DNA of 45,800 nt, from positions 1 to 45,800 of the forward strand of contig CAMBDY010000017.1 in assembly GCA_945865525.1 (NCBI GenBank), in the 5' to 3' direction. Made by a program: the position numbers and the translations under genes. Positions 17,831-25,585 of the stretch are shown in pieces; the first letter of the stretch is position 1; each line of letters begins with the position of its first letter. Below the pieces are notes generated by a model, which had not been told where the DNA came from, ran no database searches, and saw nothing but the letters and a program-made list of their open reading frames with translations. The stretch is from Nitrospira lenta (GTDB lineage: Bacteria > Nitrospirota > Nitrospiria > Nitrospirales > Nitrospiraceae).

Positions 17831-18263
17831 CGCGAGGGAGAGGGCTGGGTGATCGCTTGGGGCGGCAACGCTCTTAGAGGAAAGTCCGGACTTCACGGGC
17901 AGGGCGCTGGGTAATTCCCAGGCGGAGCGATCCGACACCAGCACCACAGAGAACAAACCGCCGATGGCCGAAGCGATGAGATGCAAGTTTTGTTGCTGCG
18001 GATCAGGTAAGGGTGAAACGGCGGGGTAAGAGCCCACCGCGGTGGTGGTAACATCACTGGCATGGTAAGCGTCGCCTGATGCAAGGCCAAATAGGAAGAC
18101 ACCTGTCGGCTTTCTTCGGGAAGCCGGCGACCGGCTGGCCCGGCCGAGGTCTTCGGGTAGGTCGCTTGAGGTTCGAGGTGACTCGAATCCCAGAGAAATG
18201 ATCATCCCCGTGTGGGATCATATCCTAGGCGGGACAGAATCCGGCTTATAGGTCTTCTCCACC
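17831..18263 (+). ncRNA. rnpB: RNase P RNA, bacterial class A
   Basis: Catalytic RNA that matures the 5' ends of tRNAs. Conserved blocks in order: GAGGAAAGTCCGGAC (about 17876), ACAGAGAACAAACCGCC (about 17947), GGTAAGGGTGAAACGG with GGGTAAGAGCCCACCGC (about 18005), and ACAGAATCCGGCTTAT (about 18235). The 5' strand GGAGAGGGC (17837-17845) pairs with GGTCTTCTCC (18251-18260), closing helix P1. A run of seven T follows at about 18268 and may end the transcript. A near-consensus promoter lies just upstream. Ends are estimated to within a few nt. Confidence 0.97.
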
Positions 18264-18510
18264 GCGCTTTTTTTATCGCTCGACGCAGCTCCCTTTCTGT
18301 CATTTTCTCTGAACAATACTCGATTTCATCAAGCAGGACGACGGGAACCTTTGATCCGTAGCGTTCTGCTAGGGCCGGATCTCCCTCAATTCTCACCTTG
18401 CTCGTGGTGATGTTCATTTCGGACTGGAGATGGGTTGCCATCTGGTAGATGACATCGCAGAGATGGCACTCATCGCGGGTCAGGATGGTGATATGAACGG
18501 GCAGGCTCAT
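18202..18510 (-). CDS. Glutaredoxin-like protein (DUF836 type)
   Basis: A 102-residue thioredoxin-fold protein. It begins MSLPVHITILTRDECHLCDV with a CxxC redox pair at Cys15/Cys18 and has the cis-Pro segment SKVPVVLLDE, as in small glutaredoxin-like DUF836 proteins. An upstream ATG at 18558 is in frame but lies outside the similarity. The last 20 codons are the antisense of the 3' end of the RNase P RNA gene, so the two genes converge and overlap by about 60 nt. A thiol-redox role is inferred from the fold only. Confidence 0.82.
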   Translation of the reverse strand: MSLPVHITILTRDECHLCDVIYQMATHLQSEMNITTSKVRIEGDPALAERYGSKVPVVLLDEIEYCSEKMTERELRRAIKKARWRRPISRILSRLGYDPTRG

Positions 18511-18679: not shown

Positions 18680-18762
18680 GCTGTCAAGGGGTTCACGTCT
18701 GGCCTATTATTGTGTCGATCCCTCCGCTTGGTTTTTACCGCGGAATGGATGGAGGTTCTGTT

Positions 18763-20538
18763 ATGAAGCTCACAGGTGCTGAAATCCTCATCGAATGCCT
18801 CAAGCGGGAGGGCGTGAAGACGATTTTCGCGCTTCCTGGTGGTGTCGTTTTAAAGATTTTTGACATGCTGCACCAGCAGAAGGACATTGAAGTCGTCCTG
18901 ACGCGCCATGAACAGGGCGCCGGCCATATGGCAGAAGGCTATGCCAAGGCGACTGGGAAAGCTGGAGTCTGCTTGGTGACTTCAGGCCCCGGCATGACGA
19001 ACGTGATCACCGCGCTGGCTGATGCCTATATGGATTCCGTGCCGCTGGTTTGTTTTAGCGGACAAGTCCCTACCAGCTTGATCGGGAATGATGCGTTCCA
19101 AGAGGCGGATAATATCGGTTTGAGTCGCCCCTGTACCAAATACAACTTTCTCGTAAAAGATGTAGCGGACTTGGCGACGACCATCAAGGAGGCCTTCTAC
19201 ATTGCGACGACGGGGCGTCCCGGTCCGGTGCTAGTGGACATTCCGAAAGATGTCTCCATGGACAAGGCCGAATTTACCTATCCAAGCTCCGTCTCCATCC
19301 GCAGCTACAATCCTGTGTATGAAGGCAATAAGTGGCAGATTAAGCAAGCGGCTGAGGCCATGATGAAGGCGAAGAAGCCGGTGCTGTATGTTGGTGGGGG
19401 GGCCATCTTTTCCGGTGCCTCGCAAGAATTGATGGAGTTGGCCGAACTGACCCATATGCCGGTCGATATGACGTTGATGGGGTTGGGGGCCTTTCCGGGT
19501 GAACATCCCCAGTCCATGGGCATGCTGGGCATGCATGGCACCTATTGGGCCAACATGGCCATGCATTATTCAGATCTAGTCGTGGCGATTGGGGCACGGT
19601 TTGACGATCGCGTGACCGGCAAGGTTTCCGAATTTTGCCCGCATGCCAAGGTAATCCACATTGACATTGATCCGACATCGATCAGGAAGAATGTCAATGT
19701 CGACATTCCTATCGTCGGCGACTGTAAAACGGTGCTGCGCGAGTTGATTCAGATTCTTCGGGCCACCGTGAACGGTGATCAGCGGGAGTTACGCAAGCCC
19801 TGGTGGAACCAGATTCTTGAATGGCAGCAAGCGAATCCGCTCGCCTATCAACAGGCAGTAGATGGGCCTATTAAGCCGCAGCATGTCATCAAGCGGCTCT
19901 ATGAACTGACTAAAGATATGGACCCGATCGTGTCGACGGACGTCGGACAGCACCAGATGTGGGCTGCCCAGTATTTTAAGTTTGCAAAACCTAATCGCTG
20001 GTTAACATCAGGCGGGCTGGGGACGATGGGGTTCGGATTCCCTGCCGCTATGGGGGCGCAAGCGGCTTTTCCAGGTCGGCTGGTTCTTTGTATTGCCGGT
20101 GACGGCAGTATCCAGATGAATATGCAGGAAATGGCAACGGCGGTGGTGCATAAATTACCGGTCAAGATCATTGTGCTCAATAACCGATTCCACGGGATGG
20201 TGCGGCAGTGGCAGGATCTCTTCTACGAAGGGCGCTATGCTTCAAGCGATCTGGAAACGACGCCGGACTTTGTGAAGCTGGCCGAGGCGTATGGCGCGGT
20301 CGGGCTCCGAGCTAGCAAGCCGTCGGAGATGGATGCAGTTCTCAGAGAAGCCATTGCGGTGAACCGACCGGTGATTGTTGATGTGCCAACCGATCGGTAC
20401 GAAAACGTCTATCCGATGATTCCTGCCGGCGGCAGCAACCATGAGATGATTTTGGAAGATCCACCGCATTTAAAAACGAAACAGGCTGGATCGGGGCAGG
20501 TGACTCCGAAGGATTTAGATACGATTCTGACGGCCTAA
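18763..20538 (+). CDS. ilvB: Acetolactate synthase large (catalytic) subunit
   Basis: ThDP- and FAD-dependent enzyme that makes acetolactate or acetohydroxybutyrate, the first common step of valine, leucine and isoleucine synthesis. The 591 residues include the catalytic Glu50 in TRHEQGAGHMAEGYA, and the ThDP-binding motif AGDGSIQMNMQEMATA...NN near residues 447-475. The ATG at 18763 has GGAGG seven nt upstream; an upstream in-frame GTG at 18712 lies in the leader. It heads ilvB-ilvN-ilvC, with ilvN 22 nt downstream. Confidence 0.98.
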   Translation: MKLTGAEILIECLKREGVKTIFALPGGVVLKIFDMLHQQKDIEVVLTRHEQGAGHMAEGYAKATGKAGVCLVTSGPGMTNVITALADAYMDSVPLVCFSGQVPTSLIGNDAFQEADNIGLSRPCTKYNFLVKDVADLATTIKEAFYIATTGRPGPVLVDIPKDVSMDKAEFTYPSSVSIRSYNPVYEGNKWQIKQAAEAMMKAKKPVLYVGGGAIFSGASQELMELAELTHMPVDMTLMGLGAFPGEHPQSMGMLGMHGTYWANMAMHYSDLVVAIGARFDDRVTGKVSEFCPHAKVIHIDIDPTSIRKNVNVDIPIVGDCKTVLRELIQILRATVNGDQRELRKPWWNQILEWQQANPLAYQQAVDGPIKPQHVIKRLYELTKDMDPIVSTDVGQHQMWAAQYFKFAKPNRWLTSGGLGTMGFGFPAAMGAQAAFPGRLVLCIAGDGSIQMNMQEMATAVVHKLPVKIIVLNNRFHGMVRQWQDLFYEGRYASSDLETTPDFVKLAEAYGAVGLRASKPSEMDAVLREAIAVNRPVIVDVPTDRYENVYPMIPAGGSNHEMILEDPPHLKTKQAGSGQVTPKDLDTILTA

Positions 20539-20560: not shown

Positions 20561-21085
20561 ATGGGCATGGAACATATTATTTCGGTGACCGTCGAGAATA
20601 AATTCGGGTCCCTGTCTCGCGTCGCCGGTCTGTTTAGCGGCCGCGGATTCAACATTGAAAGTCTTTCAGTGGCGCCAACGCTGGATCCCTCAATGTCACA
20701 GATGACTATCGTCACGTCCGGAGACGAGCGGATCATCGAACAAATCGTGAAGCAGCTCAATAAGCTGATCGATGTTATCAAGGTTGTGGATTTGAATGAG
20801 AGTGATTTTGTCTCGCGAGAGACCGCGCTCATCAAGGTGCATACCAGGCCGGAAGATCGCGCGGAAACGCTGCGGATTGCCGATATTTTTCGGGCCAATA
20901 TCATCGACTCCACGCCGGCGACCTATACCATTGAGGTGACTGGTGCCCCTCGTAAGATCGAAGCGATCATCAACCTGCTGCAGCCCCTTGGCATCAAAGA
21001 ACTCACACGGACCGGACGTGTTGCGGTCGCCCGCGAATCGATTCGTGCGGCGAGCGTGCTGGCGAAAAAGGTTGTCCGCGAGTAG
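20561..21085 (+). CDS. ilvN: Acetolactate synthase small (regulatory) subunit
   Basis: Regulatory partner of IlvB that confers valine feedback inhibition and raises activity. The 174 residues contain an N-terminal ACT domain (about 4-75: HIISVTVENKFGSLSRVAGLFSGRGFNIESL) and the C-terminal ALS regulatory domain (about 83-158). GGAG six nt before the ATG gives a well-placed ribosome binding site. Order and spacing show coexpression with ilvB and ilvC. Confidence 0.97.
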   Translation: MGMEHIISVTVENKFGSLSRVAGLFSGRGFNIESLSVAPTLDPSMSQMTIVTSGDERIIEQIVKQLNKLIDVIKVVDLNESDFVSRETALIKVHTRPEDRAETLRIADIFRANIIDSTPATYTIEVTGAPRKIEAIINLLQPLGIKELTRTGRVAVARESIRAASVLAKKVVRE

Positions 21086-21145: not shown

Positions 21146-22162
<1,017 letters not shown>

Positions 22163-22176
22163 AAAACGAGGTTTCT

Positions 22177-22827
22177 GTGGCAGATCGTGCCGTCGGCATC
22201 CCGTTTGCCAAAGAAGGAATTCCCTTCATTGGGGCTGCAGTCGGCCTGACACTGCTTGCAGGATCGCTGGGTGGGATGATTGCGGCGATCGGCGGAGCTC
22301 TCCTGACGCTCTTTGTCGCTTGGTTTTTTCGCAATCCCACTCGAGTGGTGCCGCAAGGGCCTGGTCTCATCGTGGCACCGGGCGACGGGAAAGTTATCGC
22401 CATCGAAGAAGAGTTTGAGCCGCGATTCATAAAGGATCACAGCATTCGCGTCACGATATTTCTGAACGTATTCGATGTGCATATCAATCGGATCCCCTGT
22501 GAAGGGGTTGTCGAGGATGTGCAGTATCAGTCGGGATTGTTTCTCGTCGCCAGCAGGCCTGATGCGACGTTGCGGAATGAGCAAAATGCCTTGATGCTCA
22601 GGACGGTGCAGGGGGCGAAGGTGCTCTGTGTGCAGGTGGCAGGATTGATTGCCAGACGGATTGTTTGCTGGATCTCGCCGGGTGCCCGGGCAATCTGCGG
22701 TGAACGATACGGGCTGATTCGATTCGGGTCGCGGATGGATACGTTTCTGCCGATCGGGACGGCGATTAGAGTGGCTGTCGGCGATCGGGTGAAGGGTGGA
22801 GAGACCATCTTAGGAGAGCTGCGATGA
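22177..22827 (+). CDS. psd: Phosphatidylserine decarboxylase proenzyme
   Basis: Pyruvoyl-dependent decarboxylase converting phosphatidylserine to phosphatidylethanolamine at the membrane. The 216 residues match the short PSD-A form. The membrane-anchoring hydrophobic stretch is at about 14-50, followed by FFRNPTRVVPQGPGLIVAPGDGKV. The self-cleavage site is Gly184-Ser185 in IRFGSRMD, near the C-terminus, where the serine becomes the pyruvoyl group. It starts at a GTG with GAGG five nt upstream and overlaps pssA by 4 nt, so both steps of PE synthesis are cotranslated. Confidence 0.95.
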   Translation: MADRAVGIPFAKEGIPFIGAAVGLTLLAGSLGGMIAAIGGALLTLFVAWFFRNPTRVVPQGPGLIVAPGDGKVIAIEEEFEPRFIKDHSIRVTIFLNVFDVHINRIPCEGVVEDVQYQSGLFLVASRPDATLRNEQNALMLRTVQGAKVLCVQVAGLIARRIVCWISPGARAICGERYGLIRFGSRMDTFLPIGTAIRVAVGDRVKGGETILGELR

Positions 22828-23630
22828 AAACTACTGAACTGCGTCAATCGTTTGGGCGAGATGGCCGGCGGCGTAAAGCCGCCATGCATCTCATTCCGAA
22901 TCTGTTCACGACAGGGAACCTCTTCTGCGGCGTCTTTGCGATCTTGTCCGTTTTTAATGGGAATTACCTGATCGCCGCCATCGCCATCCTGGTGGCGATG
23001 ATCTTCGATGTGCTGGACGGAAAGTCGGCGCGGTTGACGCATAGTACTAGCCATTTTGGTTTTGAGTATGACTCGCTGTCCGATATGGTGTCCTTCGGGG
23101 TAGCTCCCGGCCTTTTACTTTACTCCTGGGCACTGAGCGGACAGGGGACGTTTGGTATTGCTGTGATGTTTGCCTATGTCGCGATGGGGGCAGTGCGGTT
23201 GGCCCGATTCAATTCAACGGCGGCTGTGACGGACGGCAAGTACTTCACCGGTTTGGCGATTCCTGCTGCGGCAGGGATTGTGGCCTCACTCGTAGTACTC
23301 GATCATTACAGCATGAAGATTGCGGTAGATGTGAAGCCTATTCTCGTTCTCGTGATGACGTTGGCTCTGTCGTTCTTGATGGTCAGTACCATTAAGTATC
23401 GAAGCTTCAAAGATATGAAGTTCAGTGGCAGTCGACACATTACTTATCTGGTGTGGGGGATTTTAGTTGTCATGCTCGTGGCCGCCTGGCCCCAGGTAAT
23501 GTTGTTTGTCATTTTTGTCGGTTATGCTTTACTCGGTCCGGCAGAACGGCTTGTTGGGTTATTGCCCAAGATCGAAAGGAAACCGTCGCCGAGCAAGATT
23601 GAGCAGTCTGTGTCCGGATCGAAGCCCTAG
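22824..23630 (+). CDS. pssA: CDP-diacylglycerol-serine O-phosphatidyltransferase
   Basis: Integral membrane enzyme making phosphatidylserine, substrate of the upstream decarboxylase. The 268 residues include the CDP-alcohol phosphotransferase signature: DVLDGKSAR, then G and the two aspartates of EYDSLSD (about residues 58-85). Several hydrophobic segments follow. It is the subtype-II (Bacillus-like) enzyme, not the E. coli peripheral form. The T-box leader starts only a few nt after its stop codon. Confidence 0.95.
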   Translation: MKTTELRQSFGRDGRRRKAAMHLIPNLFTTGNLFCGVFAILSVFNGNYLIAAIAILVAMIFDVLDGKSARLTHSTSHFGFEYDSLSDMVSFGVAPGLLLYSWALSGQGTFGIAVMFAYVAMGAVRLARFNSTAAVTDGKYFTGLAIPAAAGIVASLVVLDHYSMKIAVDVKPILVLVMTLALSFLMVSTIKYRSFKDMKFSGSRHITYLVWGILVVMLVAAWPQVMLFVIFVGYALLGPAERLVGLLPKIERKPSPSKIEQSVSGSKP

Positions 23631-23635
23631 AAGGC

Positions 23636-23890
23636 TGTGACGAGGAATAGTAGGCAATGTGCATAGAAAACGAGAGAGCTGGTGGGTGGTGTAAACCAGC
23701 CTGTGCGATGCCGAACTCGCCTCTGAGCCAGAATCCGTGAAGCCCAAGCAATGGATTCCGTCTCGCCCCCGTAACAAGGCGGAATGAAGGGTTGTGGGCA
23801 ACGCCACGTTGTTCATAGCTGAATCAGGGTGGTACCACGGAGCTTCTCGAGCCTCCGTCCCTGGGTGCGGGGATGGAGGTTTTTTTATTT
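23636..23890 (+). promoter_or_regulatory. T-box riboswitch, leucine-specific, controlling leuA
   Basis: tRNA-sensing leader. Stem I has AGTA (23649-23652) opposite the specifier loop GAACTC, with codon CTC (Leu) at 23716-23718; arms GAGG/CCTC and GGCA/TGCC close below and above the loop; the apical part has AGAGAGCTGG and GGTGGTGTAAACC. The antiterminator has AGGG (23826-23829), the 7-nt bulge TGGTACC (23830-23836), and stem ACGGAG/CTCCGT closed by CCCT. The bulge TGGT pairs with ACCA, fitting the A73 of tRNA-Leu. The competing terminator follows. Uncharged tRNA-Leu should stabilise the antiterminator and switch leuA on. Confidence 0.96.
23852..23887 (+). terminator. T-box attenuator terminator
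   Basis: CCTCCGTCCC (23852-23861) pairs with GGGATGGAGG (23870-23879), ten pairs with one G-T, followed by eight T. Its left arm includes the CTCCGT and CCCT used by the antiterminator, so the two structures exclude each other. Confidence 0.95.
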
Positions 23891-24015
23891 GAGATTATTG
23901 AAAATGCTTTCCTGCAGCTTTCTCGGTCGCGTGTCTCCCTGCGATGTACCCTACGGGTACGCCGCAGTCGTCTCGCTTCCTACGGCCTTGGAGGAAAAGC
24001 CTTTTGAGTAATCTC
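23891..24015 (-). repeat. Dispersed fold-back (MITE-like) repeat, copy 2
   Basis: About 125 bp, inverted relative to the copy at 8686-8803. Its ends form an imperfect inverted repeat: GAGATTATTGAAAATGC on the left against GCCTTTTGAGTAATCTC on the right. The centre has GTACCC-TAC-GGGTAC (23946-23960). It begins right after the terminator T-run and ends 22 nt before the leuA ATG. No ORF of its own. It may be transcribed as part of the leuA leader. Confidence 0.78.
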
Positions 24016-24037
24016 ACAGGATCAGAGAGGTGAAACT

Positions 24038-25585
24038 ATGACTAGGATGATCAAAATTTTCGATACGACCCTACGCGATGGTGAGCAATCGCCTGGCGCG
24101 AGCATGAATGTAGAAGAGAAGATCATGGTGGCGAAGCAGCTGGCTCGTTTGGGTGTCGATATTATCGAAGCGGGGTTTGCCTATAGTTCGCCAGGAGATT
24201 TTGAAGCAGTCCACCGGATCGCACAGGAGGTCGAGGGGCCGACGATTTGTAGTTTGGCACGGGCGAGGCCTGAGGATATCGATCGAGCTTGGGAGGCCTT
24301 AAAGGGGGCGCCGAAGGTTCGTATTCATACGTTTCTCTCAACCTCAGACATCCACTTGAAACATCAGTTCAGAATGACGCGCGATGAGGCGAAGCGGCGC
24401 GCGGTTGAGATGGTGCAGCGGGCGCGGAGCTATGTGGACGATGTGGAGTTCTCACCGATGGATGCTAGCCGTTCCGATCCCGCCTACCTCTATGAAGTGA
24501 TTGAGGCGGTGATTGCTGCCGGAGCTGGGACGATCAATATTCCCGATACGGTCGGCTATGCGGTGCCACAGGAATTCAGCAAGCTCATTCTCGGTATTCG
24601 CGAGCAGGTGCCGAATAGTTCACAGGCGGTGATTTCCGTCCATTGTCACAACGACCTTGGCCTCGCTGTGGGGAATAGCTTGGCGGCGGTGTTCGAAGGC
24701 GCAGGCCAGGTCGAGTGCACAATTAATGGTATCGGCGAGCGAGCTGGGAATACGGCACTAGAAGAAATCGTCATGGGTCTTCGTACCAGGAAAGATTTCT
24801 ATCAAGCCGATACGAAGATTCATACTGAAGAGATTGCAAAGACTAGCCGGTTGGTCAGTAAGATCACCGGTATGGTGGTGCAGCCGAACAAAGCGATTGT
24901 CGGAGCGAACGCCTTCGCCCATACCTCCGGCATTCACCAGGACGGGTTGTTGAAAGACAAGACGACCTATGAAATCATGAAGCCGGAGACAGTCGGGCTG
25001 ATCGAGAGCAAGATGGTCATGGGGAAGCTCTCGGGACGGCACGCGTTTCGGCAGAGGCTGGTAGAGTTGGGCTATACCCTCTCGGACGAAGAGGTCAATC
25101 GTGCGTTCGAGCGGTTCAAGAAGTTGGCTGATCAAAAGAAAGAGATTTACGAAGAGGATCTCGAGGTGATTGTATCGGAAGAACTGGCTAAAATGGCCGA
25201 TCGGATCATCTTGAAGTCGTTCCATGTCACCAGCGGAACGGACCAGATGCCGACCGCCACGGTCGAGCTTGAGTTCGACGGACGCATGGTCACGCAGACA
25301 GGGACGGGCGATGGACCGGTGGATGCCATCTATCGGACGATTGCCACCATTATCCAGACGAAGAGCACGCTCCTCATGTATGCCGTGAAGGCGATCACAG
25401 GAGGCACCGATGCCCAGGGTGAAGTCTCAGTCCGGGTGCAAGAAGGCGGACGTACCGTGTCAGGACATGGGGCGGATACGGATATCATTATGGCTTCGGC
25501 GCGGGCGTATCTGAACGCACTGAACAAGCTGTCCTATTTGGCGGGAAAGCAGGCGCAGGGCGAACAGAAGGTGAACTTGATTTAG
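24038..25585 (+). CDS. leuA: 2-isopropylmalate synthase
   Basis: Commits 2-ketoisovalerate to leucine by condensation with acetyl-CoA. The 515 residues show the HMGL-like catalytic barrel with [14 protein letters not shown] (about residues 9-22), the metal-binding [32 protein letters not shown], and the C-terminal LeuA allosteric domain (about 370-505) that binds leucine. AGAGAGG five nt upstream fixes the ATG. Expression is expected to respond to leucyl-tRNA charging through the T-box and enzyme activity to leucine itself. Confidence 0.98.

Follow-up and report, generated by a model that had tools for sequence, protein, structure and literature searches.

The window, a 45,800-nt stretch of the Nitrospira lenta genome, carries on its forward strand a run of six genes identified with NCBIfam, which bears out the gene order ilvBNC-psd-pssA-leuA proposed in a first-pass annotation. 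The cluster opens with ilvB, encoding the acetolactate synthase large subunit (18712-20538; TIGR00118), whose true start may be an internal ATG at 18763. There follow ilvN, for the acetolactate synthase small subunit (20561-21085), ilvC, for ketol-acid reductoisomerase (21146-22162), psd, for phosphatidylserine decarboxylase (22177-22827), and pssA, for CDP-diacylglycerol-serine O-phosphatidyltransferase (22824-23630; also in the list of open reading frames), which overlaps psd by 4 nt. The presumed controlled gene, leuA, encodes 2-isopropylmalate synthase (24038-25585; NF002086/TIGR00973). Shortly upstream of the ilv operon, at 17837-18264, lies a bacterial class A RNase P RNA (282 bits).

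Between pssA and leuA we identified a complete T-box leader RNA on the forward strand, which spans 23628-23889 when the match to the Rfam T-box model (RF00230) is combined with mapping of the terminator. The first-pass annotation had placed a leucine T-box before leuA in a Nitrospira-like genome and named an Infernal search with RF00230 as a check; that search matched the model over its full length (positions 1-219 of 219) at 23628-23865, with a score of 91.1 bits and an E-value of 1.2e-20 in a 511-base search and 1.0e-20 against the whole 1.8-Mb genome, where the leuA leader is the only match. Together with the covariation described below, these E-values exclude a chance match. Because the score lies 1.9 bits under the Rfam gathering cut-off of 93 bits, no T-box appears in a default Rfam scan of the window, which reports only RNase P and a tRNA. 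Across the phylum, 47 of 94 Nitrospirota copies exceed the cut-off, several named Nitrospira loci among them.

The canonical T-box elements, as defined in the literature (K-turn, S-turns, double T-loop, IIA/IIB pseudoknot, UGGNACC bulge and terminator/antiterminator switch; PMC7583486), can be placed on the sequence, the pseudoknot as a prediction. Helix mapping and covariation define Stem I at 23633-23729, with a basal K-turn, an S-turn formed by AGTA and GAA, and an apical double T-loop (AGAGA and TGTAA). Its basal helix pairs 23633-23635 with 23727-23729; the start at 23636 given in the first-pass annotation is thus too late and truncates this helix. The AGTA motif occupies 23649-23652, and on the opposite side GAA-CTC-G spans 23713-23719, within which the specifier CTC (23716-23718) is followed by the purine G23719. 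An alignment of 44 sequences shows conservation of the K-turn elements UGA/UGAG and the S-turn elements AGTA/GAA, and the AGAGA T-loop is invariant; these motifs, like the TGTAA of the second T-loop in the window, were assigned by sequence. Downstream, Stem II (23731-23758) pairs 23731-23736 with 23753-23758, and five of its six pairs show two-sided change. It is followed by a predicted Stem IIA/IIB pseudoknot with the F-box CCGTAA (23764-23791). Paired cells amount to 81.8% for IIA and 80.9% for IIB, with two-sided changes in 4/4 and 1/3 pairs, respectively, so that covariation is weak for IIB. Stem III (23792-23818) shows two-sided change in all 12 of its pairs.

The 3' part of the leader can form two mutually exclusive stems. 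The antiterminator (23825-23863) consists of helix A1 (23825-23829 with 23859-23863) and helix A2 (23837-23842 with 23853-23858), which flank the 7-nt bulge TGGTACC at 23830-23836; its pairs are kept in 99-100% of cases across the 44 sequences. The intrinsic terminator (23849-23889) has a 12-bp core, 23852-23863 with 23868-23879, which extends to 15 pairs and is followed by the T-rich run TTTTATTT. Nucleotides 23853-23863 are common to both stems, serving as the 3' arm of the antiterminator and the 5' arm of the terminator. Folded separately, the terminator reaches -27.0 kcal/mol and the antiterminator -16.5 kcal/mol, and this greater stability of the terminator fits the expectation for a default-off switch. 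The specifier loop, bulge and competing stems proposed earlier were thus all located, and the proposed end near 23887 agrees with a T run that finishes near 23886-23889. With this terminator and T run present, and the leuA start about 150 nt further on, a translational T-box is ruled out.

We considered whether the leader might instead be a ribosome-dependent attenuator, in which translation of a leader peptide rich in leucine codons sets the fold, as in proteobacterial leuABCD. Both kinds of leader precede the same gene, and both can form alternative hairpins. Sense-strand open reading frames between pssA and leuA lack a leucine-codon run, however (a 27-aa frame at 23657-23740 has one leucine), and the conserved positions are accounted for by T-box architecture. 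The Leu leader model RF00512 had no match in the window or in the leader search. We therefore give this explanation practically no credence.

The specifier, rather than the discriminator base, is the informative tRNA contact. The genome encodes five leucine tRNAs, with anticodons TAA, TAG, CAG, CAA and GAG; tRNA-Leu(GAG), encoded by a single gene, matches CUC exactly and has the 3' end ACCA. This end fits the UGGU of the bulge, and to that extent the earlier argument that an A discriminator supports leucine stands; it carries little information, because most tRNAs in the genome have A73. The specifier is CTC in 92 of the 94 Nitrospirota genomes with a T-box and CTG in the other two (G163 and G237), which makes it a leucine codon in 94/94; the core of the bulge is likewise present in all 94. 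Both CUG genomes belong to the Nitrospira family, and the one that was checked (G163) encodes tRNA-Leu(CAG) in addition to tRNA-Leu(GAG). The change from CUC to CUG represents a natural specifier swap between two leucine tRNAs.

We surveyed 296 genomes across the phylum Nitrospirota, listed in order of kinship, and found the T-box in 94: all 79 sampled genomes of the window's family (its own genome included) and 15 others. No T-box was found among the listed genomes of family f2 of the same order. leuA lies downstream of the T-box in 93 of the 94 genomes, and in the remaining one the contig ends 159 nt downstream; a pssA-like gene lies upstream in nearly all. On a LeuA tree, T-box presence requires 10 gains or losses, and families without it (f2 and f3) are placed inside or beside T-box carriers. 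This tree fits either history: the T-box may be ancestral in the phylum with subsequent losses, or it may have spread by repeated gain.

Covariation supports the structure drawn above. Two-sided changes occur in 43 of the 59 pairs of the 44-sequence alignment, with 362 cells showing such a change compared to 121 in shuffles. The covariation score is 0.419, compared with 0.194 for shuffles and no more than 0.116 when the structure is slid along the alignment, and 92.5% of cells are paired, against 80.2% and at most 46.4%, respectively. Because the structure was derived from the window's own sequence, it is favoured in the slid control, and the shuffles are also affected by relatedness, but the excess of two-sided changes over shuffles is large. 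The 12 core pairs of the terminator are 91.6% kept with mostly one-sided changes, as expected where one arm serves two structures.

These data also bear on whether the element has decayed and now acts as a mere constitutive terminator between pssA and leuA. Its score slightly under the Rfam cut-off would agree with decay, as would the altered bulge in one Nitrospira relative (L137 3704-3952, JAHBWU010000021.1), which reads TGGTAAC, not TGGTACC, through either variation or a sequencing error. Across 44 diverse sequences, nevertheless, the tRNA-contacting residues and the antiterminator show little or no variation, helix A1 none at all, and most other stems covary; moreover, a constitutive terminator would cut leuA off from the operon promoter. 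Decay is accordingly very improbable. The leuA leader is a real leucine-specific, transcription-attenuating T-box by its sequence and almost certainly a functional one.

The placement of the T-box bears on which transcript it controls. The pssA stop codon (23628-23630) adjoins the T-box and lies 2 nt ahead of Stem I, and a scan for sigma-70-like consensus sites found no promoter-like site in 22800-24100, in line with the earlier remarks that pssA ends a few nucleotides upstream and that no good promoter is seen. Across the family, 45 of 79 genomes have the pssA stop inside the T-box match or no more than 1 nt from it, and in 51 of 79 it lies within 14 nt. In relatives of the same order that have no T-box, the arrangement psd-pssA-leuA is retained and no more than about 140 nt separate the end of the pssA match from leuA, a tight spacing that suggests co-transcription. 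Together with the position of the pssA stop in the family, this spacing lends support to the initial suggestion that the element attenuates read-through from the ilv operon.

Most T-boxes described so far form part of a transcript's 5' leader, and the same arrangement here would make leuA a separate T-box-controlled transcript with its own promoter in the 3' part of pssA. In 11 of the 79 family genomes pssA and the T-box match are 86-174 nt apart, which would leave room for one. At two Geobacter loci (L197 and L210), which are among the six Geobacteraceae-type loci described below, psd-pssA also lies upstream of a leuA T-box; there the T-box starts well over 200 nt beyond the end of the pssA match, again with room for a promoter, whereas in most genomes of the Nitrospira family it overlaps the pssA stop or adjoins it. 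Third-position entropy shows a slight dip at pssA codons 180-210 (0.98-1.02), and a search for conserved synonymous sites in pssA as a promoter mark gave no clear signal. Set against the empty promoter scan, the abutting stops and the close spacing in T-box-less relatives, a separate leuA transcript is unlikely, if still worth serious consideration. Most simply, leuA would be transcribed from upstream, with the T-box acting as a valve within the operon.

The spacer between the T-box and leuA varies. The window has a palindromic element at 23890-24016, between the terminator and leuA (fold z-score -4.7), and similar copies are dispersed in relatives, with 29 matches in one genome (G055) and 12 in another (G245). 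The spacer measures 110 nt or more in 57 of 77 genomes of the family and less than 70 nt in 14 of 77, a pattern that would fit insertion of a mobile repeat in many of them. At one locus (L055, genome G195) about 1 kb of extra sequence, including a run of N, separates the T-box from leuA; it holds, between the two palindrome halves, an open reading frame containing YKTxDGGxxW-type repeats.

Overall, the sequence makes it very probable that a transcriptional T-box senses the charging of tRNA-Leu(GAG) and thereby governs read-through from ilvBNC-psd-pssA into leuA. When leucine is scarce, the GAG anticodon of uncharged tRNA-Leu would pair with the CUC specifier, its elbow would dock onto the double T-loop of Stem I, and its free ACCA end would pair with the UGGU of the bulge. 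This last pairing would stabilise the antiterminator, and polymerase would proceed into leuA. The acceptor end of charged tRNA-Leu would be unable to pair, and the more stable terminator would form, halting transcription near 23886-23889, after pssA. The valine/isoleucine and phospholipid genes upstream would then remain expressed while the leucine branch is off. What the analysis demonstrates is the anatomy of the leader, its conservation across the family, its covariation, the matching tRNA gene and the gene order; tRNA binding, switching and transcription of leuA from an upstream promoter are inferred. In most family members the pssA stop codon falls within Stem I or right next to it, so that a ribosome ending translation there could conceivably cover the Stem I base and K-turn and in this way gate T-box folding and tRNA sampling, an idea we regard as a long shot; if true, the T-box would be an intra-operon device that responds both to tRNA charging and to translation of the gene upstream.

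Leucine T-boxes are known from several lineages. The Nitrospirota copies resemble the RF00230 leaders of Firmicutes and Actinobacteria in K-turn, S-turns, double T-loop, UGGNACC bulge and terminator/antiterminator switch, and in the predicted IIA/IIB pseudoknot; they have diverged from these leaders in sequence, which leaves about half of them slightly below the Rfam cut-off. The ilv-leu operon of Bacillus subtilis has a tRNA-Leu T-box before ilvBNC-leuABCD (PMC12452182), which is likewise transcriptional, reads tRNA-Leu and serves branched-chain amino acid genes. That T-box governs the whole operon, whereas the one in Nitrospira lies between pssA and leuA and can control leuA alone. T-boxes before leuA have been published for Geobacter and Pelobacter (PMC2494555, PMC2700814), and the authors of the G. 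metallireducens study named tRNA-Leu with the GAG anticodon (PMC2700814). These share with the Nitrospira element the RNA family, the gene and the CUC specifier; six Geobacteraceae-type loci that we searched score 104.9-128.6 bits with RF00230, with a CTC specifier in all six. On one Geobacter-like contig (L198), a tRNA-Leu(TAG) gene at 36-120 precedes the leuA T-box by about 160 nt and is encoded on the same strand.

In published surveys, T-boxes have been described as limited to Firmicutes, Actinobacteria, Chloroflexi, Deinococcus-Thermus and Geobacter (PMC2494555, PMC3766115). The literature searched yielded no report of a T-box in Nitrospira, and automatic annotation or TBDB entries may exist. 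The first-pass annotation had held the element to be remarkable for a Gram-negative genome; the published Geobacter leuA T-boxes take away that distinction, and conservation at the family level in Nitrospirota does exceed the published range. The type of T-box is thus known, and what extends it is its presence throughout the Nitrospira family and its placement within an operon. Found at the pssA-leuA junction in every sampled genome of the family, the leuA T-box is a stable part of gene regulation in this important group of nitrifiers and a clear candidate for a T-box that serves as an intra-operon branch-point valve.
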